Assembly (NCBI GenBank): GCA_022566795.1
Contig: JADFIF010000014.1
Coordinates: forward strand, 1-34,910
DNA from: Chloroflexota bacterium
GTDB taxonomy: Bacteria; Chloroflexota; Dehalococcoidia; Lucifugimonadales; G022566795
DNA length: 34,910 nucleotides
Direction: 5' to 3'
Shown here: positions 18,902 through 33,441 of the stretch, piece after piece
Layout: every line of letters starts with the position of its first letter
How positions within the stretch are numbered: position 1 is the stretch's first letter
Position numbers and translations under genes: made by a program
Notes under the pieces: model-generated
What the model was told of the DNA's origin: nothing
What the model saw: the letters and a program-made list of their open reading frames with translations, nothing else
The model's database searches: none

Positions 18902-20500
18902 CTACCGTCCCTTGAACTTACCGAGCACTGTTTTGGCCTTCTTGGTGAACCCGCTGTAGACCTTGCCATTGCCATTCCCGTTCACGTGGACCTGCTCGGG
19001 GTCTGCGTAGTAGCTGTAGTTGGAGGAGTAGTAGTAGTAGTGGTAAGGATAGGCATAGCCATACCCGAATCGAGAAGGCTTGAGCTTATTCATGATCACG
19101 CCGAGAATGTTCACGTGCGTATTGCGCATGGCGTCCAGGGCTGCCCTCAGCGAGGATGAGCGCGTGTTGAACCCATCGACCACCATGATCACTCCGTCGG
19201 CCTGAGATGCCATGATAGAGGCGTCGGCCACCAAGAGGACGGGCGGGCTATCCAGCAGCACATTGTCGTATCGCTGAGACAGCTCCTGCAGCAAGGTGCC
19301 CATTTTCGGCGACCCCAGCAGCTCGGCCGGGTTGGGTGGACTGGGGCCGCCTGGGATCACGTGGACGCCCTCAACCTCGGTCGGTTGGATAACGTCCGAA
19401 ACCTCGATATTGAGATCGGCGAGATAGTTGCTCAGACCGGGCTCGCGGTTGACTGCACCGAAGAGCTTGTGAACGGTAGGGCGTCGCAGGTCGCCGTCGA
19501 TGGTTACGACCCGCTTGCCCGTGTGCGCAAGGGCCACGGCGAGGTTGCTGATGACGGTCGACTTCCCCTCCTGGGGGCCCGGCGAAGCAACCAAGAGGAT
19601 CTTGTTCGCACGGTTGGCCGTGGCGAACTGGAGATTGGCCCGGATCTGCCTGAACGCCTCTGCATAGCTCGAAGTCGGCGCAGTCAGCAGGACCGGCGAG
19701 ACGCCATTCGTTTCGTGCGTCGACCACTTGAAGATGCTTCCGAGGCCTTCGACACCGAAGCGTCGCGAGAGCTGGTCTGGGAACCTCACCGTGTCCCGGA
19801 TGTTATCGAGCAGAGCCGCTGCTGCGGCGGCCAAGACGAGGCCCAGGATGGCGCCGAGGGCGATGTTCAGACGGGTGCGCGGGACTACCGGCGAGCCCGG
19901 GGTCAGGACCGGCTCCAGCAAGGACAGGCTGTCTATCGCGGCCAGCTGAGCAGTGACCAGGTCCTCGCCGGTCGAGATGCCCTGACTCGCCGCGGCGCTG
20001 CTGAGGCGAGCGAACTCAGCGAGCCTCTGCTCTATCGCGAAGTCGATGAATTCTTCAGCGACGATCTGGGCCGATACGGCGGCCAAATTGGGGTCGCGAT
20101 GCCTGGCCTTTATCTCGAGCACAGGCGGGTTGGAGGCAGTCGACGCGGAGATGACGGACGCCAAGTTTACGCCGTTGAGGGCATCCCCGCCGTTCTGCCG
20201 GGCCACTTCGAGAAATGGGTTGGCTGTCACGAGCCGGCGATACGTCGCCGCTAGCTCCTCGCTCCGTCTGAAATCGCTGAACCCCGGAACGAGCCCACTG
20301 CCCCGGTACTGAACCAGGATCGTCGCCCTGGCTTCGTAGACCGGGTCCTGCGTCTGGCTGTAGAAGTAGCCTGCGGCGCCACCCACCGCTGGCAGCAACA
20401 CCAGGAGCCACCAGTAGGTGAGAAACACCCCTACGTAACGCCTCAGGTCAATTGTGTCGTCGTCTATGTCGGTACTCCTCACGTGTGCGGGTGGAGGCAT
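18902..20500 (-). CDS. Polysaccharide chain-length protein fused to BY-type tyrosine kinase (Wzz-Wzc-like)
   Basis: An inner-membrane co-polymerase that controls chain length and export of a surface polysaccharide and autophosphorylates on tyrosines. From ATG 20500 it has 532 residues (a GTG at 20530 would add ten). Layout: first membrane helix about 24-46, periplasmic Wzz domain with the long coiled region up to ~205, second helix about 212-231, then the cytosolic kinase. Kinase motifs are Walker A SPGPQEGKST (306-315), Walker A' VVTIDGDLRRP (331-341) and Walker B VLLDSPP (414-420). The C-terminus holds a tyrosine cluster (about ten Tyr in residues 480-498), the usual autophosphorylation tail. 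It is the last gene of the glycan cluster, with its own promoter and a strong terminator. Confidence 0.93.
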   Translation of the reverse strand: MPPPAHVRSTDIDDDTIDLRRYVGVFLTYWWLLVLLPAVGGAAGYFYSQTQDPVYEARATILVQYRGSGLVPGFSDFRRSEELAATYRRLVTANPFLEVARQNGGDALNGVNLASVISASTASNPPVLEIKARHRDPNLAAVSAQIVAEEFIDFAIEQRLAEFARLSSAAASQGISTGEDLVTAQLAAIDSLSLLEPVLTPGSPVVPRTRLNIALGAILGLVLAAAAAALLDNIRDTVRFPDQLSRRFGVEGLGSIFKWSTHETNGVSPVLLTAPTSSYAEAFRQIRANLQFATANRANKILLVASPGPQEGKSTVISNLAVALAHTGKRVVTIDGDLRRPTVHKLFGAVNREPGLSNYLADLNIEVSDVIQPTEVEGVHVIPGGPSPPNPAELLGSPKMGTLLQELSQRYDNVLLDSPPVLLVADASIMASQADGVIMVVDGFNTRSSSLRAALDAMRNTHVNILGVIMNKLKPSRFGYGYAYPYHYYYYSSNYSYYADPEQVHVNGNGNGKVYSGFTKKAKTVLGKFKGR

Positions 20501-20549
20501 TGCTCCACACCGTCTGTGGGCCCCCGGCACGTCTCATTCCAAAAGTTTA

Positions 20550-21017: not shown

Positions 21018-23069
21018 TCAGTCGGCCGGCACCGTTGCGCCGGTGGCGTCACACTTGACGGGGCTCAGCCCCAATGCGCGGTGACGGTAGGTTTCGCCCA
21101 GGCAGTTCAGGGTCGCGCCCACATCCGGCCCATCGAGAAAGCTGATGCCCATGAACCCGTCCGTACTCGCATTGGCCACATCGCGCCAGGTCTTGTAGAA
21201 GAACCAGCGCTCGATGTTCTTGCTGGACGAATTGGCCTCCAGCCAGTCGAGTACCCTGATGATGTAATCGCTCAGCCCATCCCAGTGATAATCCCCCACC
21301 GGCACGAAGTTGCCCGAGCCGGGCGGGTCCTGGGTCCAGCCGTCATATCCGACGTGCAGCGAGATTTCGGTGATCCAGATAGGCGTGCCGGCGTACTCGG
21401 GGATCGTGGCAAGGTAATCCCTCAGACCCGTAATCTGGTCTATGACGATTTGGGCGTGAGGGACACCCGCGTTCGGAGTCCGTACCCAGTCTATGGGATA
21501 GGTATCCATGGCCCAGGCGTCGACGTCGGGCTTTGCTCCGTAGCGGCTCTCGTATGCGCTTATGAACCCGGCAATCCAGTTCTTGCCCGGCTCGTAGTAG
21601 CAGAGCTGATAGCACGTCCAATCCCAGTTCAGGAGGCTGGGGCTGACGATCTTGGCGGTCGGGTCTCCGGCCCTGATGTGGCTGGAGAGGTGGTGGAACA
21701 TCGGCGCAAACCGCGCTCCCGTAATGAATCCGTACTTGTTGGGCTCGCCGAACAAGTACCAGGTCGTGCCTGGAGAGGCCGCGGCCATCTGCTCGAGCTC
21801 TGTCGCCGTCAGCACCCCGAGGGCCGCGACTTCGTCGTCAGACATCTCGTTGACGCCGTCGTACGCTTCGGAGCCCCACTCGGAGGCGCCCACGGGTACC
21901 CGCAGGTAGGCGACCTTCGATGCGCCCGCGGGCACTTGAGACATATCGGACTCCAGGTCCAGATACCATCTAACCCCAAGCTGGTCCAGGAAGTAGGCGT
22001 TGTCGGACTGAGAGCGTGAGTGGAGGACCACTCCGAACCTGTCGTCGGGCCCTGTCGGAGTCGCGGTCGGGGTAGCGATCGGATCCGGCGTGGCGGTGGG
22101 TGGAGACGGAGATGGCGCAGGACCGGTCGTACCAATGGGCTCCGGAGCCGCGTCAGGCGTTGCCGTTGCACCCGGCGTCGCAGTTGCTGATGCCTCGGGG
22201 ATTGCCGTCGCCGTCGTCTCGGGCGCCGGCACGGAGGTCACAGTGGGAGTTGGCTTTAGGGCGACGGTCGCGGTTGCGACAGGCGCTAAGCTGTCGGGCG
22301 TCGGATTCGGTGGCGAGGCGGGGATCCATTCGGAGGTCGCACCGATAGTCGCTGTTGCCTCCGCGGTTGCGGAGGGCCGGGCTGTCGGGCTCGCGGTCGG
22401 CACCATAAGAGCGGTTGCAGGCGTCGGTGAGGACGGAACGCTCCGCATCGGGGTGACGGTGGGTACCCGCGCGGCTTGCAGCGGTCTGAAGCCTCTGGGC
22501 ACCCTTGGCCCAGAGGCCGTTGAGGTGCGGGAGGCTACTATGGCGAACACCGAGAGCCCCGGAGACACTGCCCTAAACCGTATATGGCTGCTCGATTGTC
22601 CGTTGACCCAGGTCGACAGGGACGTCCAACCGTCGGAGAGTCTGGCCAATGTAATGGAATCCGGCTCGTAGCCGTTGGCTTCCAGCCATCGTTTGGGCAC
22701 GGCAAAGGACAGGGTCACCGAGCGGATCTCGGCATCCTCGAACCCTTCCGCTGCCACCTCCACGTACTGGAAAACATCCCCTACGAGGGCCAGAGGGTTA
22801 CGGGCCGGTTCGCCCAGCAGTCGAGCCACCTCGACCCGTGCGGTACCCGCCGTGTCGCGGGCCTCGAACGAGATATGGACAAAGGCGATCGCCGCGTTGC
22901 TGATGAACATCTGTGCCATGCCTTCGCTGGAGATGTCCAGGGTCTTCGACTCGAACGCGCCGATCTCGAATCCATTGGCTGGCATGAGGAGTCGAGGGGT
23001 GGGCGCTCGTGAACAAGCAACGGCCAGGGTCAGTGCGGCCAACGCCGCTATTAGGAACCACCTGCTCAT
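21018..23069 (-). CDS. Secreted lipoprotein: PGF-pre-PGF-like domain, Thr/Pro/Ala linker, glycosidase-like TIM-barrel domain
   Basis: A 683-residue exported protein. It has a signal peptide with probable lipobox AVAC (Cys19). Residues about 100-180 resemble the PGF-pre-PGF domain known mainly from archaeal surface proteins: VTLSFAVPKRWLEANG, then a DGWTSLST stretch and SPGLSVFAIVAS. Residues about 200-342 are a low-complexity linker of Thr, Pro, Ala and Val, probably a wall-spanning or glycosylated stalk. Residues about 344-670 look like a clan GH-A-type glycosidase barrel, with YLFGEPNKYG (Glu442, possible acid/base) and PIWITEISLH (Glu568, possible nucleophile). In the cluster it could trim or process the polysaccharide outside the cell. 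The catalytic residues are inferred from motif position; a non-catalytic carbohydrate-binding role is possible. Confidence 0.8.
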   Translation of the reverse strand: MSRWFLIAALAALTLAVACSRAPTPRLLMPANGFEIGAFESKTLDISSEGMAQMFISNAAIAFVHISFEARDTAGTARVEVARLLGEPARNPLALVGDVFQYVEVAAEGFEDAEIRSVTLSFAVPKRWLEANGYEPDSITLARLSDGWTSLSTWVNGQSSSHIRFRAVSPGLSVFAIVASRTSTASGPRVPRGFRPLQAARVPTVTPMRSVPSSPTPATALMVPTASPTARPSATAEATATIGATSEWIPASPPNPTPDSLAPVATATVALKPTPTVTSVPAPETTATAIPEASATATPGATATPDAAPEPIGTTGPAPSPSPPTATPDPIATPTATPTGPDDRFGVVLHSRSQSDNAYFLDQLGVRWYLDLESDMSQVPAGASKVAYLRVPVGASEWGSEAYDGVNEMSDDEVAALGVLTATELEQMAAASPGTTWYLFGEPNKYGFITGARFAPMFHHLSSHIRAGDPTAKIVSPSLLNWDWTCYQLCYYEPGKNWIAGFISAYESRYGAKPDVDAWAMDTYPIDWVRTPNAGVPHAQIVIDQITGLRDYLATIPEYAGTPIWITEISLHVGYDGWTQDPPGSGNFVPVGDYHWDGLSDYIIRVLDWLEANSSSKNIERWFFYKTWRDVANASTDGFMGISFLDGPDVGATLNCLGETYRHRALGLSPVKCDATGATVPAD

Positions 23070-23122
23070 CTCCTTAAGGTCCAGCGGAACGAGCGGACTT
23101 CAGTTAGAGGTTGCCCGGCTCA

Positions 23123-24541
23123 TCAGTCAGCTTCAGACGGACGAACGGCCGAGCGCTGCTCAAACGTAAGTCCCGGCGCGGGTTCGATGATCGCCTGTGA
23201 CTGCACCCTCGCTGGCCTGGCGATTTCGTGAAGGGACGACAACGCGCCCGCCATCATCAGGAAGAGCTCGAAAGGTCCATGATCCATCGATGAAGGGTAG
23301 TGGAGGTCCGAGCCGTACACGACGACCAGCCCGATGAAAGCCAGGCCGAAAAACTTGAACTGGGCGGTCCGGGTCAAGCGGGTCGAGTACCTGATCGCCA
23401 CCAGCATAGCGGATAGCACAAGCAAGGCCCATCCAAACCCGAAGTAGATCGGGAATCCGGTCCCTCGCAGCTCCGAGAATCCGCTAAAGGAACTCGGGCT
23501 TGTGGCGTTTGCCAAATTGCTCCCAATGATGTGGGCGCCAAAAAGGAACGAGTAGAAATCGGATTCCAAGTACCCTTCGACGACTCGTTGCGCGTCCACG
23601 GTATAGGCGAAGATCGTCGTGCTCGTTCCGAACTCTCCGATCTCCACAGGGGTCAGAAACTGAGCCCGAACAAGACTTGATATTGCCCCAAAGGCGAACA
23701 ACAGGCCCACTGCAACCAAGACCGACGTAAAGAACAGCGACCGGGCCGAGCGTAAACTCAACAGGCCGATCGCCAGTGCGAGCGCCGCCGCTAGGATGGC
23801 CGTCTTGTTCTGAAGATGAAACGCCATGAACGCCAGTGCCCCCAGGAGAACGACGTTCACTACAGGATTGAAAAGCGAGGAGCGAAACCACGAGTCCTCG
23901 CGGTGCCTCTGGCGGAGGGTGTAAAGGAACGGTAATACCAACACGAAGAGCGCGGCGGCCGCCATCCCGGGTCTCTTTAGACCGTTCAGAATGGTGATCA
24001 CGCGCCCCGAGTTATACTGCTCAAAAAGGTCTGGGGTCATCACCGCGACCTTTTTGACGATCTCCTGACGGACCCATGGAATGGATGCTCCTGACTCGCG
24101 AATCTCGACTACGTATAACTCGACGAAGAAATCGGCGAGCAACACGGCTGCCAGAATCCAGGCCAGTTTCGTTACGTTCATCACGTTGGCGGCAGACCCA
24201 AGGGTGTACCGCCGGGCGATGAAATAGATGATCACCGGAAAGTAGTAGTGGACGAAAACGCGGACGATCTGCGGCTCGCCAGCCCCAAGAAACAGCACCG
24301 CGACGACGCTCATGAACGCGCCGTACATGACGTACAACAGCGCTATGCGGTCGAGGGCATTGAGACGCATCTTCGAATACCTTCGACGGACGGTGAGAAG
24401 ATAGAGCCCTGCCACTATGGGGACGACGATGATCCAGGCAAAGACATCGAAAAAGACTGCCCTGAGGGGAAAGTAAAAGAAGGCGGCAGCCAATGCTGCC
24501 GCAAGCAAGGCCAACTCCAATTTTTCGGTGCGAACTACCAC
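23123..24541 (-). CDS. O-antigen ligase/polymerase-like integral membrane protein
   Basis: A 472-residue multi-pass membrane protein with about ten hydrophobic segments, among them LALLAAALAAAFFYFPL near the start, paired helices at about 38-50 and 65-88, and further clusters between 205 and 420. Residues ~305-345, between helices, form a longer polar loop, as in Wzy/WaaL-type proteins. No sequence motif allows a firm choice between polymerase and ligase; these families diverge strongly. Its place between glycosyltransferase genes and the Wzz/BY-kinase argues for polymerisation of repeat units. It follows the GT4 gene at nine bases and precedes the secreted lipoprotein by 53 bp. The start at 24541 (M-V-V-R-T-E-K) is the first available. 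Confidence 0.72.
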   Translation of the reverse strand: MVVRTEKLELALLAAALAAAFFYFPLRAVFFDVFAWIIVVPIVAGLYLLTVRRRYSKMRLNALDRIALLYVMYGAFMSVVAVLFLGAGEPQIVRVFVHYYFPVIIYFIARRYTLGSAANVMNVTKLAWILAAVLLADFFVELYVVEIRESGASIPWVRQEIVKKVAVMTPDLFEQYNSGRVITILNGLKRPGMAAAALFVLVLPFLYTLRQRHREDSWFRSSLFNPVVNVVLLGALAFMAFHLQNKTAILAAALALAIGLLSLRSARSLFFTSVLVAVGLLFAFGAISSLVRAQFLTPVEIGEFGTSTTIFAYTVDAQRVVEGYLESDFYSFLFGAHIIGSNLANATSPSSFSGFSELRGTGFPIYFGFGWALLVLSAMLVAIRYSTRLTRTAQFKFFGLAFIGLVVVYGSDLHYPSSMDHGPFELFLMMAGALSSLHEIARPARVQSQAIIEPAPGLTFEQRSAVRPSEAD

Positions 24542-24550
24542 ATTCAGCCC

Positions 24551-25768
24551 CTACGATGCACTGTGCGGGACCGCCGCCCCACCGGACAGCAGGCGCTCGT
24601 ACAGCGAAAGCATGTGCTCCGTCACGATCTTGTCGTCGAACTCCCGGACGGCTCGCGCTCTCGCAGCGGCGCCGAATCGCGCTCTCAGGGAGGAGCTCCC
24701 CAACAGCGCCTCGACGCCCTCCGCCAAGGCCTGTCCGTCTTTGGGAGCGACGATCAACCCGTTTACGCCATCATCCACAACTTCTCTGCATCCCGGCACG
24801 TCGGTCGTGACAATCGGCCTGCCCATCGCACAGGCCTCCAGAAGCACCCGAGGAAATCCCTCGCGGTACGAGGGCAGGGCAACGACGTCGGCCATTGCCA
24901 GCAGCTCGCGGATGTCGGTACGTTCGCCAAGAGAGGTGATCAACCCCTCGCCGGTCCAAGCCGCCAGCTGCTCGTGTGGAATCGCGGCCGGGTTACCAGG
25001 GTCTGTCGGGCCGACCAGCAAGAAGCGCGCGCCGAGCCTGGGCCCAAGCAACCGGGCGCATTCGACGAACTCCCGAATTCCCTTGTGCCAGAGCATGCGC
25101 CCGACGAGCAGCACCACCGGGGCGTCGCGGGGAATCCTCAAGGACTTCCGGAGACGAACCACCTCGGCGAGAGTGACTGCATCCGGTGAGAAGACGGCCA
25201 CATCGACGCCGGAGCCGCCTGGGACGTGCACGGCCCGTCCAGGGGGCAGCATGCCGTAGCCCTCCAGCTCACTCATATCATCTTTGTTCTGGACCACTAC
25301 TGCATCGTTCAGCCGGAACGCAATTCGGTACAGCATCGTCACGATGGGTCGGATCAGAGAGGACATCCAGTCCTCACCGGTGAAGACGTAGCCAAGGCCA
25401 TTAACTGAGGATATTGACACGGGAACGCCCGCCAACCGGCAAGCGATTGCGCCGTAGATGTTGGGCTTCGGGGTGAAGTGATGCGCGATGTCCGGCCTTA
25501 TTCGTCTGTAGATAGTCCAGAGATTAAGGATGCTGAGCATCTCTACTGCCGGATTCACTCCGCGGCGCGGTAGCGACCAGGGCACGAAAGTGGCGCCGGC
25601 GTCTTCGATGGCGGACACCGCGGGCCCAGCGGGAGCGATGGCGTAGACCTTATACCCCTCAACTTTGAGCGCCCGAAGCAAACCTCCCCGCAGACGGTGA
25701 AGGTACACATCGGTGTTGTACACCAGCGCAATAGTCCGGCCCGGGGACGTCTGACCGTCGAGCGTCAT
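24551..25768 (-). CDS. Glycosyltransferase family 4 protein (third of three in a row)
   Basis: A 405-residue GT-B-fold enzyme that would move a sugar from a nucleotide donor to the growing lipid-linked repeat unit at the inner membrane. N-terminal GT4-like part: IALVYNTDVYLHRLRGGLLRAL and HHFTPKPNIYGAIA (the segment typical of the EpsD/CapM-like group). C-terminal donor-binding part: VLLVGRMLWHKGIREFVECA and the E-x7-E motif EGFPRVLLEACAMGRPIV, ending in TDVPGCREVV. Its ATG overlaps the stop of the preceding glycosyltransferase by four bases (25765-25768). The sugar is unknown. Confidence 0.9.
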   Translation of the reverse strand: MTLDGQTSPGRTIALVYNTDVYLHRLRGGLLRALKVEGYKVYAIAPAGPAVSAIEDAGATFVPWSLPRRGVNPAVEMLSILNLWTIYRRIRPDIAHHFTPKPNIYGAIACRLAGVPVSISSVNGLGYVFTGEDWMSSLIRPIVTMLYRIAFRLNDAVVVQNKDDMSELEGYGMLPPGRAVHVPGGSGVDVAVFSPDAVTLAEVVRLRKSLRIPRDAPVVLLVGRMLWHKGIREFVECARLLGPRLGARFLLVGPTDPGNPAAIPHEQLAAWTGEGLITSLGERTDIRELLAMADVVALPSYREGFPRVLLEACAMGRPIVTTDVPGCREVVDDGVNGLIVAPKDGQALAEGVEALLGSSSLRARFGAAARARAVREFDDKIVTEHMLSLYERLLSGGAAVPHSAS

Positions 25769-26931
25769 CGGTGGGCCCTAACCGCGCGAGCGCCCGCGCC
25801 GGCGGCAGCCCGCACGAAGATCTCCTCGTAGGCGTCAGCCATCGCTGCCCAGCAGAAGCGGTCGCGCACGGCCTTCTTGCCCGCTTCCGCCATCCGCAAA
25901 GCATTCTCGCGGGCCTCCAGCAGCTCTACGCCGGCTGTCGCCACCGCGTCGGCATCGTACTCGACTACAAGGCCCGTCTGCTGATTAAGAACAGCCTCGC
26001 CGCAGCCGGTGGTGTCTGTGGTGACCGTTGGCACTCCGGCGGCCTGTGCTTCGAGAAGCGCCCTGGGCAGGCTGTCGCTGGAGTCCGGCGGCGATGCGTA
26101 CAGGAATAGATCGGCGGTCGCCAGCAGATCGGGGACGTCGCGGCGATTGACGTCTAATCTGATCCGGTCCGCCAGCGGATGCTGTCTCAGATAGCGCCTA
26201 AGGTCGTCGACCGCCGCCGGGTTCTCGCTCTTGGCGGCGATGAGGTACGTGGCGTCTGACACGCGCCGACCGATTTTCTCGAAGGCGTCCAGCAGAAGCC
26301 TCACGCCCATGGACTTACCTTCGAAGTGAAGCGTGACCACCGAGAGGACACGTTTCTGGCCGGGAAGCCATTCCTTCGGGACCCTTCGACCGGCCTCGAT
26401 GCCGTCGTAGTCTATGCCGTTATACACCGTCGTGACCTTGCGAGCATGCCGCGGCACGACTTCGCGAAGGGCCTGGGCAAGAAAGTGGCTGTTCGCCACG
26501 ACAGCGTCCGCTCCTCCGACGGCCAGCCTGAGAAGCGCTCCGTAAAACATCGACTTGGCCGCCGAGAGTGCCACGGGCAGGCTGCGCTCTGAGTAGTAGC
26601 TCCAGATGGCTCCGTTCAGGGTGTACACGTATGGCCGCCCGGTCAGCCATTTGTTGAGTCGAAGCTGGACCACAGGCACGAATGAGCGCGAGGTGAAGAA
26701 GACGTCGTGGTCCAAGCCCCTGAGAACTCGTAGACCAACCAGTGGCCCGTAGTCGACCCGCCGCACGCGGTCCTGGTCCCATGGGACCGGAAGGCTGTGG
26801 TAGATCGTCACGCGGTGGCCGCGCCGCGTAAGCTCCTCGGCCAACCGTGCGCCACGTTCGGGCCGGGGGAACCAGAATCCCAAGTTCAGGCCGTCCGGCT
26901 CAATTGCCTGAGCGTCGTCGGCTCCTGGCAT
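25765..26931 (-). CDS. Glycosyltransferase family 4 protein (second of three)
   Basis: A GT-B-fold glycosyltransferase of 388 residues from ATG 26931; the frame opens as far as 27048, but that would overlap the preceding gene by 80 bp. A TTG at 26949 is another possible start. The N-terminal part reads LGFWFPRPERGARLAEELTRRGH, with VYTLNGAIWSYYSERSLP in the middle. The C-terminal donor site has VVTLHFEGKSMGVRLLLDAF and LPRALLEAQAAGVPTVTTD, with the tail CGEAVLNQQTGLVV. It overlaps the next gene by ATGA. Acceptor and donor are unknown. Confidence 0.88.
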   Translation of the reverse strand: MPGADDAQAIEPDGLNLGFWFPRPERGARLAEELTRRGHRVTIYHSLPVPWDQDRVRRVDYGPLVGLRVLRGLDHDVFFTSRSFVPVVQLRLNKWLTGRPYVYTLNGAIWSYYSERSLPVALSAAKSMFYGALLRLAVGGADAVVANSHFLAQALREVVPRHARKVTTVYNGIDYDGIEAGRRVPKEWLPGQKRVLSVVTLHFEGKSMGVRLLLDAFEKIGRRVSDATYLIAAKSENPAAVDDLRRYLRQHPLADRIRLDVNRRDVPDLLATADLFLYASPPDSSDSLPRALLEAQAAGVPTVTTDTTGCGEAVLNQQTGLVVEYDADAVATAGVELLEARENALRMAEAGKKAVRDRFCWAAMADAYEEIFVRAAAGAGARAVRAHR

Positions 26932-26965
26932 TTTGGTCTCGTGTCTCAAGTGAGCTCTTGACCTC

Positions 26966-28186
26966 CTAGACCTCGGCTTCGAGGGGCATCCGGTTGGGCC
27001 TTCGACTCTCTCGCGCCTGCTGGAATAGGTCCTCATAGCGCCTGGCAACCTTCTCCCACGTGCAGGACGCGACGAACTCGAATGCTTTGGTTACGAGTCT
27101 CTCCCTGAGCTGTGCATCGCTCAGGGCTCTGCCCAGCTCTTGTGCGAATGAGTCGACATCGCCGGCGCGGGCCTGCAGTCCGTTCTCGTTGTGTTTCACC
27201 AGCTCCCGACAGCCGGGCGCGTCTGTCGAAACGTAGGCGGCCCCGGCGGCCATTGCTTCGAGCTGGACCATGGGGAAATTCTCGATCAGAGTAGGGAAGG
27301 CGTAGACGTCGGCCGCCTGGTACATGCGGACGAGCCTTCGGTCGGGGAAGCGCCAATCATCGTCCCCGCCTCGGCTAACACCGATTTGGCCTATGGTGAT
27401 CACATGACCGTCCAGCCCTCTAGAACGGACCTCGGCGTCGATCCTGTCGGTTCCCAGGCCGACGACGTACCACCTGAACTCATGCCCGCGGGCCCGCAGT
27501 CTCTCAGCGATGGCCGGAATCAGGTGAAAGCCTTTCTTTTGGTGATTGCGGCCTGTAGTGAGGATTACGGGTCTATCGCTGGGCCAGCCCAGGTCCGACC
27601 TAAGTTCGGAGACCTCACGTTCCCGACGGAACCAGTCGGCGTCGACGCCGTTGGTGATCGTCGCGATGTTTTCGTCGGCGACGCCTAGCTCCCGAAAGTC
27701 CTCCCGGGAGGCCTCGGTCATCGCGACCACCTTGTCGTACGCGGTCACAGTCCGCTTGATTCTGGCCGCTTGGACAGCGTTCAGGCGCATCCCGTACCCA
27801 AGCTCCGGCGACCGTTGGATATCCTCTCCCGAGGCCCTCAGGACGATTGGGGCGTGGTCCCGAAGCGTCGTCCCTGCGTAGCCGCCCGGATACGTCCCCA
27901 CGACCAGCCACACGTCGTAGGCCTTGTCGCGCTGCCTGCGCTGGAGGTAACGAGCGGCTCTGTACATGCCCAGGGACGACAGGCGGCGCACGGCGCCGTG
28001 GAACTTCCACGGCAAAGGTGTCAAGAGCGAGCGATAGCGGGGGTCGAGCGCGTGGAACTGGTCGGACGGCACGTAGACATCGACGTCGTGTCCAAACTCG
28101 GCGAGCTGCCGGGAGATATTGTGTGAGAAGACCTGGGCGCCGCCCACCTTTGGGAGGAACGAGCCGGTTAGTATCCCGATCTTCAA
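26966..28186 (-). CDS. Glycosyltransferase family 4 protein (first of three)
   Basis: A 406-residue GT-B-fold enzyme. The glycine-rich N-terminal loop is plain (MKIGILTGSFLPKVGGAQVF), as is the donor-binding half with VILTTGRNHQKKGFHLIPAI and the E-x7-E region ENFPMVQLEAMAAGAAYVST, followed by DAPGCRELVKHNENGL. Its ATG overlaps the stop of the methyltransferase gene by four bases (28183-28186), so both are translated together. It probably adds one of the sugars of the repeat unit at the cytosolic face of the membrane. Confidence 0.92.
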   Translation of the reverse strand: MKIGILTGSFLPKVGGAQVFSHNISRQLAEFGHDVDVYVPSDQFHALDPRYRSLLTPLPWKFHGAVRRLSSLGMYRAARYLQRRQRDKAYDVWLVVGTYPGGYAGTTLRDHAPIVLRASGEDIQRSPELGYGMRLNAVQAARIKRTVTAYDKVVAMTEASREDFRELGVADENIATITNGVDADWFRREREVSELRSDLGWPSDRPVILTTGRNHQKKGFHLIPAIAERLRARGHEFRWYVVGLGTDRIDAEVRSRGLDGHVITIGQIGVSRGGDDDWRFPDRRLVRMYQAADVYAFPTLIENFPMVQLEAMAAGAAYVSTDAPGCRELVKHNENGLQARAGDVDSFAQELGRALSDAQLRERLVTKAFEFVASCTWEKVARRYEDLFQQARESRRPNRMPLEAEV

Positions 28187-29055
28187 TCTTCACCCACATC
28201 GAGTCCATTCGGTGCACCGGGCATCTCGACGCGGCGTTGGTGGCCGTTGCGTGAGACAACCAGCGCGGTCAGGTCCGAATGCCTGCCGGCCTTCCTCAGC
28301 ACGTACCCGTTGCACGACGCGACCCCGAGCTTTGAGAGCACCCTTCGAGGCGCCTCAAGGCCGAAGCGGTAGGGCGAGTGAGCTGGAAGACCGTGAATTC
28401 GGCCTGCCGTCTCGAGTCCGGCCGAGGCGAACAGCGGCTTCCAGTACGATGCTCCCATTCCGATGAACTCGGAGTAGTGGCCGGCGTACTCGCCGTGGAC
28501 AGCCGGAATGAGATTGCGCTCCACGAAGGACGGCCGTCCGCTCTTCAGGTTGTTTCCCCTGCTCTCGACTCTGCCTATCGACTCTCGCCTCTGCCGGGAC
28601 AACGCGATCTCCGCCAAAGAGAGGGCCTGGCTCGGGTAGAAGAGCGCAAGATGCAGTATCTTCCAGAGACGATTGGGCACTATATGGATCATGACTCCGT
28701 CGTCGCGCAGGACCCGGCTCATCTCAGACAGCGCTCGCGCCGGGTTCGGCAGGTGCTCCAGCAGGTTCGACGAGTAGACGAGATCGAACCTGCCCGCCTC
28801 GTAGGGCAGGGCCTCGGCGTCACAGATAGCGTAGGCTACCTTTGGGTCGTTCACTCGTTGTAGCCGCTCGTCGTTGAGGTCGGTGCACAGGACCCTCTTC
28901 GCGTAGTGGGCGAGAAGCGGCGCCTGAAATCCGTCTCCGGCGCCGAGCTCGAGGGCCTCTCCGAAGGTGTCCTCAGGCACCGCCCGGAAGACGGCTTCGA
29001 TCTCGCGACGACGTAATGAGCGCCTCAGCTTGGCGCTATCCGCTCTGATCGGCAT
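28183..29055 (-). CDS. Class I SAM-dependent methyltransferase
   Basis: A 290-residue protein with the Rossmann-type SAM site: motif I ALELGAGDGFQAPLLAHYA (about residues 34-52), acidic CTDLNDERL as motif II, CDAEALPYEAGRFDLVYSS as motif III/IV, and LLEHLPNPARALSEMSRVLR after it. This is the Methyltransf_11 pattern. The C-terminal ~130 residues are a variable substrate part with no motif I recognise. In this setting it may methylate a sugar of the polysaccharide or a lipid-linked intermediate. It overlaps the first GT4 gene by ATGA. Confidence 0.88.
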   Translation of the reverse strand: MPIRADSAKLRRSLRRREIEAVFRAVPEDTFGEALELGAGDGFQAPLLAHYAKRVLCTDLNDERLQRVNDPKVAYAICDAEALPYEAGRFDLVYSSNLLEHLPNPARALSEMSRVLRDDGVMIHIVPNRLWKILHLALFYPSQALSLAEIALSRQRRESIGRVESRGNNLKSGRPSFVERNLIPAVHGEYAGHYSEFIGMGASYWKPLFASAGLETAGRIHGLPAHSPYRFGLEAPRRVLSKLGVASCNGYVLRKAGRHSDLTALVVSRNGHQRRVEMPGAPNGLDVGED

Positions 29056-29104
29056 CAGACATGGAAGTGAGTTTAGCCGTGTAAGATTGCATAGGGAGCG
29101 ATCA

Positions 29105-29845
29105 CTACTCCTGCACGAGATCGATCTTGCTGTCCAGGGAGGCCTTCAGCGCGACAAGGTCAGGGTGGAAGTCTATTTCCGCCCAATCGCCTGGAGCGCA
29201 TGTAACGTAGTTGACGGGAAGGCCGGCATCCATCAGCGCCTGAATAGCGCTCAGGTAGTAGACGTTCAGGTTGTCTTTGATCCGGACCATACGGTCAAGC
29301 TCATCGGCGAACCATCGCCGGCCCTGGCCCTGGAACCTGATCATGCCGATGGACTCGCCGTTGGCTTCTTCTGCCGTCAGCTCCTTCGATACCTTGTAGA
29401 CGCGGTCACCCGAGATATGGACCTTCATGTCGTCTTCGTCGTATGACTCCTTGCGCGACACCACCATGACGACGTCTCCATCGGCTGCCAGGAGGTTCTC
29501 GAAGACCTCGCTACGGTAGATGTCGTCCCCGTTCACGAGAACGAAGTCGTCATCGATGTGGGGCATTCCCATCCAGGCGGAGATCAAGTTGTTGGACACG
29601 TCGAAGAAAGGGTTGTAGACGATCTGGAAGTTGAAGTCCTCGTAGTACTGGATCTTCGCCTCGATCTGCGCCGACCTGTACCCGGTAAGAAGAACGATGT
29701 CTGTGACGCCGCTGGGCTTTATCGCGTCTAGCTGTGTCTCCAGCAGCGTGAGGCCGCGGCCCAGGTCGAGGAGGCTCTTGGGGGTGTTCCGAGTCAGCGG
29801 CCAGAGCCGCGACCCTGTTCCGGCCACGAGGATCAGGACTTTCAT
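29105..29845 (-). CDS. Sugar- or polyol-phosphate nucleotidyltransferase
   Basis: A 246-residue nucleotidyltransferase from ATG 29845, where the family N-terminus begins (MKVLILVAGTGSRLWPLT, then RNTPKSLLDLG). The frame runs further upstream to 30013 only by overlapping the lipoprotein gene. FVLVNGDDIYRSE holds the metal-binding Asp pair. The size and the G-x-G-S-R-L-x-P-L-T...P-K-S-L signature fit LicC, inositol-phosphate cytidylyltransferases and small sugar-1-phosphate nucleotidyltransferases alike. A CDP-alcohol transferase-like gene in the same cluster makes a cytidylyltransferase role attractive, but this is inference. It starts four bases after the stop of the lipoprotein gene. Confidence 0.87.
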   Translation of the reverse strand: MKVLILVAGTGSRLWPLTRNTPKSLLDLGRGLTLLETQLDAIKPSGVTDIVLLTGYRSAQIEAKIQYYEDFNFQIVYNPFFDVSNNLISAWMGMPHIDDDFVLVNGDDIYRSEVFENLLAADGDVVMVVSRKESYDEDDMKVHISGDRVYKVSKELTAEEANGESIGMIRFQGQGRRWFADELDRMVRIKDNLNVYYLSAIQALMDAGLPVNYVTCAPGDWAEIDFHPDLVALKASLDSKIDLVQE

Positions 29846-29849
29846 GAGG

Positions 29850-31205
29850 TTATCGGCCAGGCTCCCAGGTAATGTTCGGGTTCGCCTCGACCCCTCTCTC
29901 CTGTAGCCACAGAGGCGGGTCCTCGATCTCGCAGGTGAAGCCGGTCTGCTCGCTCGCCGGCAGCGACGCGAAGGCGCTATCACAGGCCGCCAGGTGTGAG
30001 CTGTACCAGTCACGCTTCGGGATGTCGCTGAAGAATACGAAGCTCTGGCCGGTCACCTGCTCCAGGGCCTTTATCGCTCCGCACCAGTCCACGTAGACCT
30101 CCTTGCCGAGGTACTCGTTGGCGGAGTGGAACGCCCAGGGGTATTCGCAGTCCTTCGCCGGCACCTGATCGAGGAGCGTCGCTGGATGCGAGGAGAGTTG
30201 AGTTGTGTTCCCCGCCTCGTCTATTGCGAACACCCCGACTGTGCCCCCGACGTCGTCGGCGTAGAGGCCGGCCTGATTAGCTGTCAACCCAGAGAAAGCT
30301 GTGCCGTCAGGCAGGATGATGCCGGCGGTACCAGTCGCTGGAGTGTTGCCCCCCACCGTGATGACGTTGAAGTTGGTATCGAGCCCGCCCACGATTTCGA
30401 CGCGACCGGCAGTTACGCTGAGGCTGGTAAGTGGTGATGTAGGGTTGAGGGTTGCGCCCGATGTCTTAGTTAGCAGCATAAGTCGCCCTGCCCCACCGTC
30501 GATCCAATAGCAGATGGCAGCACGTGTCAACTCGGTGCTAGGTGCCCTGGTGTCCATGGCGCCGCCGAAGCCGATGCACCCTCCGGGATTGTTATCCCCT
30601 ATGAGGTCGGGGCGCTCGCGCTGCCAGATGGTTATGGCGTTGTGGTTTTCGGCCACCATTCCGCCGTAGTCCTTCGTAAACACGGCCGCGTTGGAGTCGT
30701 AGCTGTCGGCTGTAGGTGAGAAAGCATTGATCCGAGGGGACGCCGGAGCAGCAGCAGCCACCACCTCCTCCACGAAAGTTTTGACTGCTACGGCGACGGC
30801 TTCTTGCACCAGTGCCCTGATTCCCTCTTCGCTCGCCCCCCCGGTCGCTGACACTGCAGGGGCGGTTGCTGCCACCGCTTCTTGCACGAGAGATCTGACT
30901 TCTTCGGCGCTCGGTCTGGTTGCCACCTCCTCTTGGACCAGCGAGATGACCTCTTCCACGCTGGGTACCGCATTCATCGTTTGCTCTACTAGAGATATGA
31001 TCTCAACAGGACTAAGCCCCGAGTGGGCTGGGGTAGGAGCGATTGGAGGTGTCTCGGCAGCGACAGCCGCGGCAGCCGCTTCCCGAAAAGTAGCGATCAG
31101 CTCCTGTCTCGTGACGACGGTCTCGCCACCGCCACCGCAGGCGGTAGACACAAGCCCTATGAGCGTGAGCGTCGAGAGCAGCCCTAGCAATGCCTGAATT
31201 CTCAT
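29850..31205 (-). CDS. Lipoprotein with N-terminal repeats and an unrecognised C-terminal domain
   Basis: A 451-residue exported lipoprotein. Signal peptide MRIQALLGLLSTLTLIGLVS is followed by T-A-C, with lipid-bearing Cys23. Residues about 55-145 contain four or five copies of an acidic helix repeat of the form S-x-E-E-(V/I)-x-S/A-LVQE-A/E-V-A with a period near 20 residues; this may form a coiled coil or stalk. The C-terminal two thirds are a beta-rich-looking domain with paired cysteines (GGCIGFGG, AAICYW, KDCEYPW, VDWCGAI, AACDSAF, GFTCEIE), plausible disulfides. I choose ATG 31205, six bases after GGAG, which overlaps the stop of the methyltransferase fragment as ATGA. Function unknown; a surface or glycan-associated role is inferred from location. 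Confidence 0.82.
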   Translation of the reverse strand: MRIQALLGLLSTLTLIGLVSTACGGGGETVVTRQELIATFREAAAAAVAAETPPIAPTPAHSGLSPVEIISLVEQTMNAVPSVEEVISLVQEEVATRPSAEEVRSLVQEAVAATAPAVSATGGASEEGIRALVQEAVAVAVKTFVEEVVAAAAPASPRINAFSPTADSYDSNAAVFTKDYGGMVAENHNAITIWQRERPDLIGDNNPGGCIGFGGAMDTRAPSTELTRAAICYWIDGGAGRLMLLTKTSGATLNPTSPLTSLSVTAGRVEIVGGLDTNFNVITVGGNTPATGTAGIILPDGTAFSGLTANQAGLYADDVGGTVGVFAIDEAGNTTQLSSHPATLLDQVPAKDCEYPWAFHSANEYLGKEVYVDWCGAIKALEQVTGQSFVFFSDIPKRDWYSSHLAACDSAFASLPASEQTGFTCEIEDPPLWLQERGVEANPNITWEPGR

Positions 31206-31555
31206 ACTATTCTCCACTCAAACGTTGCCCTGGAGGATGCGTAGGCCCCTTGTCTCATGACGACTCCCTCCGAGTCAGGCAATCCCTCGAAGGAGTCGAA
31301 GGCAAAGAACCGCATCTCGTCCAGTCCATGCTTACGCGCCAGCCTGCAGGCATTGATAAAAGAGGTTCCGCGGAACACTCCGAACTCCAGATAGTCGCCT
31401 GCGCTTTGGGATTCAGACACGGCGCGAAACACACAGTCGAACAGTGAGTCCCGGCGATCGACGTAGAGGTAAGTCCTCGCCATCGCATACGCCCACTTCG
31501 ATATCGGCGAAGGGGCGTGGGTGTAGAGGCTGAAAAGTGTCTCCTTGATCTTCAT
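31202..31555 (-). pseudogene. Truncated TylF/macrocin-type O-methyltransferase (N-terminal half only)
   Basis: A 117-residue frame from ATG 31555 whose residues 53-92 fit the SAM-binding start of TylF-type methyltransferases: GDYLEFGVFRGTSFINACRL, then FFAFDSFEGLP. Full members have roughly twice this length and carry the metal-binding and catalytic residues in the missing second half. The frame ends at TFEWRIV-stop, exactly at the ATG of the lipoprotein gene, and the rest of the enzyme is not found in any frame nearby. I therefore read it as the remnant of a gene cut by a deletion or by arrival of the downstream gene. A short functional protein cannot be excluded. Confidence 0.7.
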
Positions 31556-31567
31556 GGTCGCAGCCTG

Positions 31568-31596
31568 AGTATACATATGGCATTGTGCCGCTTAAA
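31568..31596 (-). promoter_or_regulatory. Weak promoter candidate inside the cluster
   Basis: On the minus strand TATACT (31573-31568; 5/6 match) has TTTAAG (31596-31591; 3/6 match) 17 bp upstream. It lies in the 92-bp gap between the asparagine-synthase-like gene and the methyltransferase remnant, the largest gap in this half of the cluster. Confidence 0.3.
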
Positions 31597-31647
31597 GGCG
31601 TAAGTGGCGCGTATGGAGGGTTCACGGGGGAGCGTGGCAGGGCCGCC

Positions 31648-33441
31648 TCACACTGCTTCGGCCAGCAGCTCCAGGTTCCTCTGCGTCCACATTTTGTAGT
31701 CTACAGCGCCTTCCGGATGCCCTTGCGAGTAGAAGGAGGAAGGGATTGGGAACCCCATCTTGCGCCGCTCCACGATCTGCAACGGGAGCATCTTTCTGCC
31801 TATGTCCTTCAGCATTACTTTTGGAATATCGTGGACCTCGCTGATCTCGTCGGCCACGAGCCCGGTCAGCTCGGAAAGCGGCCGGATGGGCCGGACCTTG
31901 TACTCGATTGGCAGGGTATTGACGAACTCCACAAGACGGTGATCGAGGAAGGGCACCCGCGCCTCGACCGAGTGCGCCATGGTGGCGGCGTCGACGCGAT
32001 AGAGAAGTCCCGGCAGATGGAGGTTCTGGAACAGCAACAGCATTCGGTTGAACGGCGTGTCGGCATCCAGCGCGTCGTGCAGGCGGCGCACGTCCCCCTC
32101 GACCGACTCTCGCAGTGCCTCGCCGTCGACACTGCCTATCCAGGGGCGCAGAGCCTCCACGGCGTATTCGTGGGGCGTATAGCCGTAGCGCTGAAAGAAC
32201 AGGTCCATGAACGATTCCGGCATGGATTTTCCATAGCGCCTCTCCAGCTTCTCTCTTACCCCTGCCGTCGCACCTCGGTTATGGCCGATGAGCTCCCAAT
32301 CGTGGGGAAGCAAGAATATCCGTCCGTAACCTGCGAATATCTCGTCGGCTCCCTCACCGGAGAGCACCACGCGATGGGTCTCGGAGATGCCCCGCGACAG
32401 CACCTTGATCGCGACCTGGTTGGGCACTCCCAAAGGCTCTTCGAGCTCGGCGACCATGGCGAGGTGCTGATCGGCGAACTCCTCCGGTCCGAGCATGTAA
32501 GGGTGATGGTGCGTCCCCAACTGCTCGACGACCTTATGTGCGAAGGCGGACTCATCGAACTCCTCGGCCCCACATATGCCGATCGAGTAGGTGTCGAGAC
32601 GCTCCTTATTGCGAGAAGCCACGGTGGCCAAGACGCTCGAATCGAGGCCTCCGGACAAGAACGTCGAGAAGTCGTGGTCGCTTCGCATGCGGAGCTCGAT
32701 AGCCGAGTGAAGCAGCGCCTCGACCTCGCTCAGGGCATCCTCGTAGCTACCGCCGAACCCACCGGCCGAAAGGTTCGTCCACCAGCGGACCGCCGTCTCC
32801 TCACCGTCGGCCGCGACGCGCAGAAGGTGGCCCGGCATGAGCTGTCGAATCCTGCGGTCGAAGCTTCGCGACATGATGGGGTACCGGAACCGGAGGTAAG
32901 AGTAGAAGCCCTCAGGGTCCGGCTGGAAGGGGAGCCCCGTCAACAGGCGCACGGTCCTGGTTTCGGAGGCAAATACCATACCCCCCTCGACGCGCGAGTA
33001 GAACAGAGGCTTGATGCCAAGCCTGTCCCGCACGAGGGTCGTCGAGCCGGTGTCGAGGTCGTGATAGGCGAATGCGAACATCCCGTTGAGGCGCTGGAGA
33101 AACTCATCGCCGTACAACCTCAGCCCCTCGACCAGCACGACGGAGTCTGAGCGCTCTCGGCGCCGGCAGATGTCTCGCAGTACCGCGTCGTCCTCCATCA
33201 GCTCGAGGTAGTTGTATATCTCTCCGTTGAAGACCAGCGCGCCTCGGCCGTCGAGGCTTCTTATGGGCTGGGGAATCGGGCTGTCGCCGATGATCGACAG
33301 GAGGGTGTGCCCCAGGCAGACGCCGGGCAGCGACACGGTGTCCCGGCTGTCAGGTCCGCGATGCGCAAGGCTGCTCATGGCCCGCTCTACGCGACTGGGC
33401 TCCAGCGTCTGCCCGCCGATGCTGCCAAATATGCCGCACAC
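31648..33441 (-). CDS. asnB: Glutamine-hydrolysing asparagine synthase-like amidotransferase
   Basis: A 597-residue enzyme of the AsnB family. The N-terminal class II glutaminase domain begins with nucleophile Cys2 (M-C-G-I-F-G), with AHRGPDSRD near 26-34 and VFNGEIYNYLEL near 70-81. The C-terminal synthetase domain has the PP-loop FLSGGLDSSV (261-270) and SGEGADEIFAGYGR. The family adenylates a carboxylate and replaces it with an amide. In polysaccharide clusters such proteins (WbpS-like) amidate uronic acids; in housekeeping they make asparagine. The setting favours the first, but both fit. It starts only four bases after the CDP-alcohol transferase-like gene. Confidence 0.92.
   Translation of the reverse strand: MCGIFGSIGGQTLEPSRVERAMSSLAHRGPDSRDTVSLPGVCLGHTLLSIIGDSPIPQPIRSLDGRGALVFNGEIYNYLELMEDDAVLRDICRRRERSDSVVLVEGLRLYGDEFLQRLNGMFAFAYHDLDTGSTTLVRDRLGIKPLFYSRVEGGMVFASETRTVRLLTGLPFQPDPEGFYSYLRFRYPIMSRSFDRRIRQLMPGHLLRVAADGEETAVRWWTNLSAGGFGGSYEDALSEVEALLHSAIELRMRSDHDFSTFLSGGLDSSVLATVASRNKERLDTYSIGICGAEEFDESAFAHKVVEQLGTHHHPYMLGPEEFADQHLAMVAELEEPLGVPNQVAIKVLSRGISETHRVVLSGEGADEIFAGYGRIFLLPHDWELIGHNRGATAGVREKLERRYGKSMPESFMDLFFQRYGYTPHEYAVEALRPWIGSVDGEALRESVEGDVRRLHDALDADTPFNRMLLLFQNLHLPGLLYRVDAATMAHSVEARVPFLDHRLVEFVNTLPIEYKVRPIRPLSELTGLVADEISEVHDIPKVMLKDIGRKMLPLQIVERRKMGFPIPSSFYSQGHPEGAVDYKMWTQRNLELLAEAV

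Follow-up and report, generated by a model that had tools for sequence, protein, structure and literature searches.

A gene of a SAR202-type Dehalococcoidia bacterium (MAG size 2.77 Mb) encodes a predicted lipoprotein in which an archaeal-type PGF-pre-PGF domain is joined by a long stalk to a TIM barrel resembling GH128 enzymes and PslG, and the gene lies in a polysaccharide cluster. The build of the protein is unusual yet lineage-typical, and it is well supported as real. What is new here is a variant of the hydrolase-in-exopolysaccharide-cluster theme that has an archaeal-type module, in bacteria with an archaea-like envelope. By analogy, we consider it fairly probable that this is a membrane-tethered, PslG-like and endoglycosidase-like protein that belongs to the pathway for the cell's own exopolysaccharide (or S-layer glycan) in a bacterium without peptidoglycan. 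SAR202 bacteria abound in the ocean, and an archaeal-type domain linked to their proteins for polysaccharide and signalling offers a handle on how their envelope is built and how proteins are anchored to it.

Domain order and gene setting

The gene was found in the window, i.e., the whole 34,910-nucleotide stretch of DNA analysed, and its coordinates (Table 1) are exactly those given in an earlier note made from the sequence alone: one minus-strand open reading frame of 683 codons. Residues 1–20 are the sole hydrophobic segment of the protein, with the lipobox LAVAC coming after, and there is no C-terminal transmembrane segment. The lipobox, which the earlier note had also placed ahead of the PGF-pre-PGF domain, was called by inspection rather than with a dedicated predictor, and inspection of the fused homologues found a Cys at the position equivalent to Cys19. 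The protein thus appears to have the signal peptide with lipobox Cys that marks a bacterial lipoprotein. At the start of the gene, AAGGAG abuts the ATG with zero spacer (window positions 23070–23078), an odd spacing for a ribosome-binding site; no in-frame alternative start with better spacing was seen for this frame.

The TIGR04213 profile matched residues 39–179 at 70.7 bits (E 1.3e-19; curated cut-off 28 bits) over profile positions 9–153 of 153. The domain had been recognised correctly in the earlier reading, which placed it at about residues 100–180; it begins about 60 residues sooner. Likewise, the stalk has the Thr/Pro/Ala-rich composition described for it (77% P, T, A, S and V) and is, at 162 residues, longer than the 140 or so first estimated.

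Table 1. Coordinates of the gene, its parts and its neighbours in the window
Feature	Coordinates	Strand	Basis
Whole gene: lipoprotein + PGF-pre-PGF + stalk + GH128/PslG-like barrel	21018..23069	-	683 aa; single ORF
Signal peptide and lipobox LAVAC; Cys19 lipidation predicted	23013..23069	-	sequence; hydrophobic segment; homologue Cys
PGF-pre-PGF domain (TIGR04213), residues 39–179	22533..22955	-	profile match; all-beta model, GAIN-like
Pro/Thr/Ala-rich stalk, residues 180–341	22047..22532	-	composition
TIM barrel, GH128/PslG-like, residues 342–683	21021..22046	-	AlphaFold2, Foldseek, homologue alignment, profile
Glu442, predicted catalytic acid/base (motif GEPN here, NEPN in distant homologues)	21744..21746	-	alignment
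Gly441, in place of Asn of the GH-A NE motif	21747..21749	-	alignment
Asp522, where GH128 has the His contacting the -1 sugar	21504..21506	-	alignment
Glu568, predicted catalytic nucleophile (WITE)	21366..21368	-	alignment
Wzz/BY-kinase (chain-length determinant + tyrosine autokinase), next gene downstream	18902..20530	-	profile matches
10-TM protein, no family match, directly upstream; candidate Wzy polymerase/ligase	23123..24541	-	profiles, TM count
Three GT4-type glycosyltransferases, upstream	24551..28186	-	profile matches
Rest of cluster: methyltransferase, sugar-1-phosphate nucleotidyltransferase, second lipoprotein, asparagine synthase-like protein	28183..33441	-	profile matches

The second lipoprotein of the cluster (29850–31217, minus strand) has coiled SVEEVxxLVQEAV repeats and no family match. 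The polysaccharide-cluster setting, already noted for the window, was found again around the barrel genes of relatives. Among 14 barrel loci, BY-kinase homologues were present in two (next to the barrel gene in L041; upstream in the L042 locus) and PF02397 bacterial sugar transferases in four (L035, L037, L040 and L041); a UDP-sugar dehydrogenase was present in L043 and a GDP-mannose dehydratase in L033. DUF4012 homologues occurred in seven of the 14 (L033, L034, L036, L038, L040, L042 and L043), where the DUF4012 membrane protein adjoins the barrel gene or lies within a few kb of it, and where an Ig-like-domain lipoprotein often comes next. The source genome has such a DUF4012/lipoprotein pair on another contig. 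Because glycan-synthesis genes recur near the relatives' barrels, the association is conserved although the clusters differ; given the varying gene content, either the lineages make different polymers or the association is a loose one.

MraY carries out the first membrane step of peptidoglycan synthesis. None of 59 genomes of the order, the source genome included, had a MraY match, while 12 of 14 control genomes were positive. This absence agrees with published work on SAR202, in which peptidoglycan is absent, an S-layer-like layer is present and some strains have archaella (PMC10444878, PMC11994032). Given the lack of peptidoglycan, a lipid-anchored protein would sit on the outer face of a wall-less cell; that the cell has a single membrane we infer from its lineage.

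The barrel and its proposed function

The earlier note had proposed a glycosidase-like barrel with a plausible GH-A Glu pair at 442 and 568, and had named the lack of a profile match or a fold other than a TIM barrel as grounds for dropping its reading; profile searches and structure prediction gave neither outcome. The AlphaFold2 model of the barrel, made from a 14-sequence alignment, had a mean pLDDT of 90.1 and a pTM of 0.90. In a Foldseek search of the PDB, the top match was PslG of P. aeruginosa (5bx9, E 9e-10), followed by GH128 endo-beta-1,3-glucanases (6uax, 6uaw and 6uaq; TM by target 0.68–0.73) and then by other clan GH-A enzymes. When the 14-sequence profile was compared with the PDB, GH128 chains were the sole significant matches (6uav, E 8.5e-6). 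In that alignment both Glu are in register, Glu442 on the Glu of NEP and Glu568 on that of W-V-T-E, and both are invariant across the 14 homologues. The barrel therefore shows what characterises GH128, a TIM fold in which the NEP and WxTE strands carry the catalytic Glu, and the assignment can be made nearer GH128 and PslG than a generic GH-A enzyme. Pfam Glyco_hydro_cc (PF11790) scored the window protein at 19.5 bits, just under the gathering cut-off of 21 bits, and relatives' barrels at 21.4–38.1 bits, above it. The Pfam scan of the window protein gave no match to GH39, the CAZy family of PslG, so the likeness to PslG is one of fold.

In GH128 CBM6E, the residues in contact with the -1 sugar are N167, beside the acid/base, and H245, near the nucleophile; Y247 activates the nucleophile (PMC10956234). 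By alignment, the activating Tyr is kept in the window protein as Tyr524, and the Asn and His contacting the -1 glucose are absent, with Gly441 and Asp522 in their places. The combination of the two changes is retained in most close relatives, and the most distant homologues (L045 and L046) have NEPN and His, an ancestral-looking state. The catalytic machinery thus seems intact and the sugar-recognition site altered. Since the changes fall at substrate-contact positions, the sugar recognised is probably different from that of GH128, and the -1 subsite suggests a substrate other than plain beta-1,3-glucan.

The editing of the cell's own polymer by a tethered hydrolase is proposed because of the analogy to PslG, an endo-glycosidase of the Psl cluster. 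Both proteins have a clan GH-A barrel with two Glu and are encoded by exopolysaccharide-cluster genes, and PslG is membrane-associated; in one study, full Psl production depended on this association and on the catalytic residues, although the need for PslG in Psl synthesis is disputed (PMC6813494). PslG is a retaining endo-beta-glucosidase (PMC11912335). The two differ in that identity is about 16%, that the window protein is a lipoprotein with a PGF-pre-PGF domain and a stalk, and that its host is a presumably single-membrane bacterium without peptidoglycan. In the proposed mechanism, the lipid on Cys19 would hold the protein at the external side of the sole membrane, where the PGF-pre-PGF beta-sandwich would serve as a membrane-proximal docking or structural module in an archaea-like proteinaceous envelope. 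The long stalk would bring the barrel through or above the S-layer; if extended, it would span tens of nanometres (estimated at about 0.3 nm per residue), enough to cross that layer. The barrel would then cut newly made polymer by a retaining mechanism, with Glu442 as acid/base and Glu568 as nucleophile, and cleavage might serve to shorten chains, to free polymer or to remove chains that are misplaced.

The position of the gene between the Wzy-like 10-TM protein and the Wzz/BY-kinase argues for action on the cell's own polymer; the Gly and Asp substitutions, the score of the barrel alone below the Pfam cut-off and the variation among relatives' clusters argue against it. Might the protein instead be a nutritional surface hydrolase acting on foreign (algal) polysaccharide, its tether keeping released sugars near the cell? 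SAR202 live among phytoplankton polymers, and a surface GH128-like endo-glucanase would fit laminarin-type glucans. We think this unlikely, as no sugar uptake genes were recognised beside the gene within the window, the loci hold synthesis genes (BY-kinase, glycosyltransferases, PF02397) instead of uptake sets of the SusCD or ABC type, the -1 subsite is unlike that of the GH128 glucanases, and a cultured SAR202 is reported to have few glycoside hydrolases (PMC10444878). The same altered subsite, with its retention in most close relatives, would suit a weak or dead barrel that acts as a lectin-like scaffold and holds nascent polysaccharide at the surface. Degenerate enzymes, however, usually lose the catalytic Glu or the activating Tyr first, and here both Glu and Tyr524 are invariant or conserved, which makes a scaffold improbable. 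The earlier reading of a surface-anchored polysaccharide-processing protein is thus supported, and its action on the cell's own polysaccharide is what we infer.

The PGF-pre-PGF domain and its fold

The description of the domain as archaeal-type held up. In a tblastn search of 72,556 plasmids, 11 records matched and all 11 were archaeal (haloarchaea and Methanosarcinales; best identity 42%). Of 98 genomes of the order, 22 carried TIGR04213, compared with three of 400 sampled across the phylum, the source genome counted. The domain is therefore both archaeal-type and enriched in this lineage. It resembles the domain of archaeal surface proteins (TIGR04213 / IPR026453) in scoring far above the curated cut-off and in its W-L-P-T...PGFS-FAI pattern, which haloarchaeal and methanogen proteins also have. 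It differs in position, being N-terminal behind a bacterial lipobox and not ahead of a C-terminal PGF-CTERM. To our knowledge, the domain has no experimentally known role in any organism. Archaeal contamination of the bin was rejected: bacterial genes (chorismate synthase-like, glycolate oxidase-like and BY-kinase) lie on the contig, the protein has a lipobox, and the fusion is found again in other Chloroflexota genomes.

The PGF-CTERM sorting signal and archaeosortase A, a setting that is typical though not obligatory in archaea, were not found here. Sorting by this route was rejected for want of support in the source genome, which gave no match to archaeosortase A (TIGR04125); since none of 59 genomes of the order had a match above the cut-off, the archaeal sorting route is not implied. 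Small exosortase/archaeosortase-like proteins of about 190 residues do occur in some genomes of the order (G012, G047 and G020; TIGR04125 30–35 bits, below the cut-off), the source genome not among them.

The AlphaFold2 model of the domain had a pLDDT of 82.7 and a pTM of 0.81 (three sequences; the other four models 64–70). The three best PDB matches in Foldseek were GAIN domains, from the two adhesion GPCRs CD97 and BAI3 (probability 1.00, E 1e-3 to 5e-3, TM 0.45); GPR110 and ankyrin ZU5-type chains ranked below them. The W...PGFS-FAI of the domain and the W...HLT-FAV of the GPS have the same order and similar spacing, about 25 versus 23 residues from W to the cleavage site. At the sequence level, hhalign put the domain and five GPS sequences from the PDB in that register, but the match was weak (E 0.12), and among 200 column-shuffled controls 4% scored as high. 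HMMER with the PGF profile against the PDB gave no match to GAIN-type domains, a Pfam scan of 22 PGF-pre-PGF members gave none to GAIN/GPS domains, and the GPS HMM (PF01825), run over 59 genomes, did not match the PGF-pre-PGF loci. The 22 aligned members lack GPS cysteines, and all 22 lack the His of the HxS/T autoproteolysis motif, most having Gly there (G/P-L/F-S). In the literature searched, no paper linked the names PGF-pre-PGF and GAIN.

These likenesses and differences can be accommodated, tentatively and somewhat short of an even chance, if the domain is a prokaryotic branch of the GAIN/ZU5 (GPS) domains, known from adhesion GPCRs, polycystin, PIDD and bacterial ZU5 proteins, with PGF(S) a decayed HFS/HLT autoproteolysis site. 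In the peptidoglycan-less SAR202 it would have become a general membrane-proximal surface module of glycosidase lipoproteins, receptor Ser/Thr kinases and repeat-rich surface proteins, paralleling adhesion GPCRs. Some surface proteins of bacteria are known to have ZU5-superfamily domains, in certain cases together with glycohydrolases (PMC3482391), much as the window protein has a putative one, and so the link would extend a known superfamily. If true, it would connect the domain in which adhesion GPCRs are cleaved with an archaeal domain that is poorly described. The GAIN matches, and the placement of PGLS-FAI where GPS has HLT-FAV, could also be read as an active GAIN/ZU5-type autoprotease that cuts itself to release or expose the barrel. 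That is very improbable: self-cleavage is not expected when the cleavage His is missing throughout the aligned members, and HMMER support is absent.

Fusions and other domain partners in relatives

That the build is unusual was borne out, but it is not unique: at least two relatives have the complete PGF-pre-PGF and barrel fusion (L043, 755 aa, and L041, 873 aa), and several more have halves at contig ends. In G002 and G046 the two halves lie at contig ends with the break in the repetitive stalk, and in G078 and G090 the domain runs into the start of the barrel and the frame then ends; all four are probable fusions. Seven barrel proteins lack the PGF-pre-PGF domain (L035, L036, L038, L040, L042, L045 and L046). 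The barrel tree was poorly resolved and the fusion label costs three changes on it, so that a single origin of the fusion is not established. One of the seven, the close barrel homologue L035, is on a contig labelled as a Rhodospirillaceae MAG (PBVE01000022.1), which is either misbinned or reflects transfer.

Elsewhere in the order, the PGF-pre-PGF domain forms the presumed extracellular part of four Ser/Thr kinases (L028, L030, L031 and L032; Pkinase 166–201 bits), a receptor-kinase design that is apparently typical of the order. These are membrane kinases with Pro-rich stalks, from G085, G055, G076 and G088. In five surface-like proteins (L002, L003, L013, L027 and L048), the domain is accompanied by MgtE_N-like helical repeats, CARDB or both, and by a C-terminal transmembrane segment. 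In L013, L027, L029 and L048, which look secreted, long KAAEILxxV helical repeats precede the domain; the repeats have MgtE_N/FliG_M-like Pfam matches in L013, L027 and L048, and most of these repeat proteins have a C-terminal transmembrane segment and basic tail, without PGF-CTERM. L002 and L003 are two further PGF-pre-PGF genes of the source genome (contigs C136 and C148), both at contig ends; they are 97% identical over 660 bp and diverge afterwards in the stalk.
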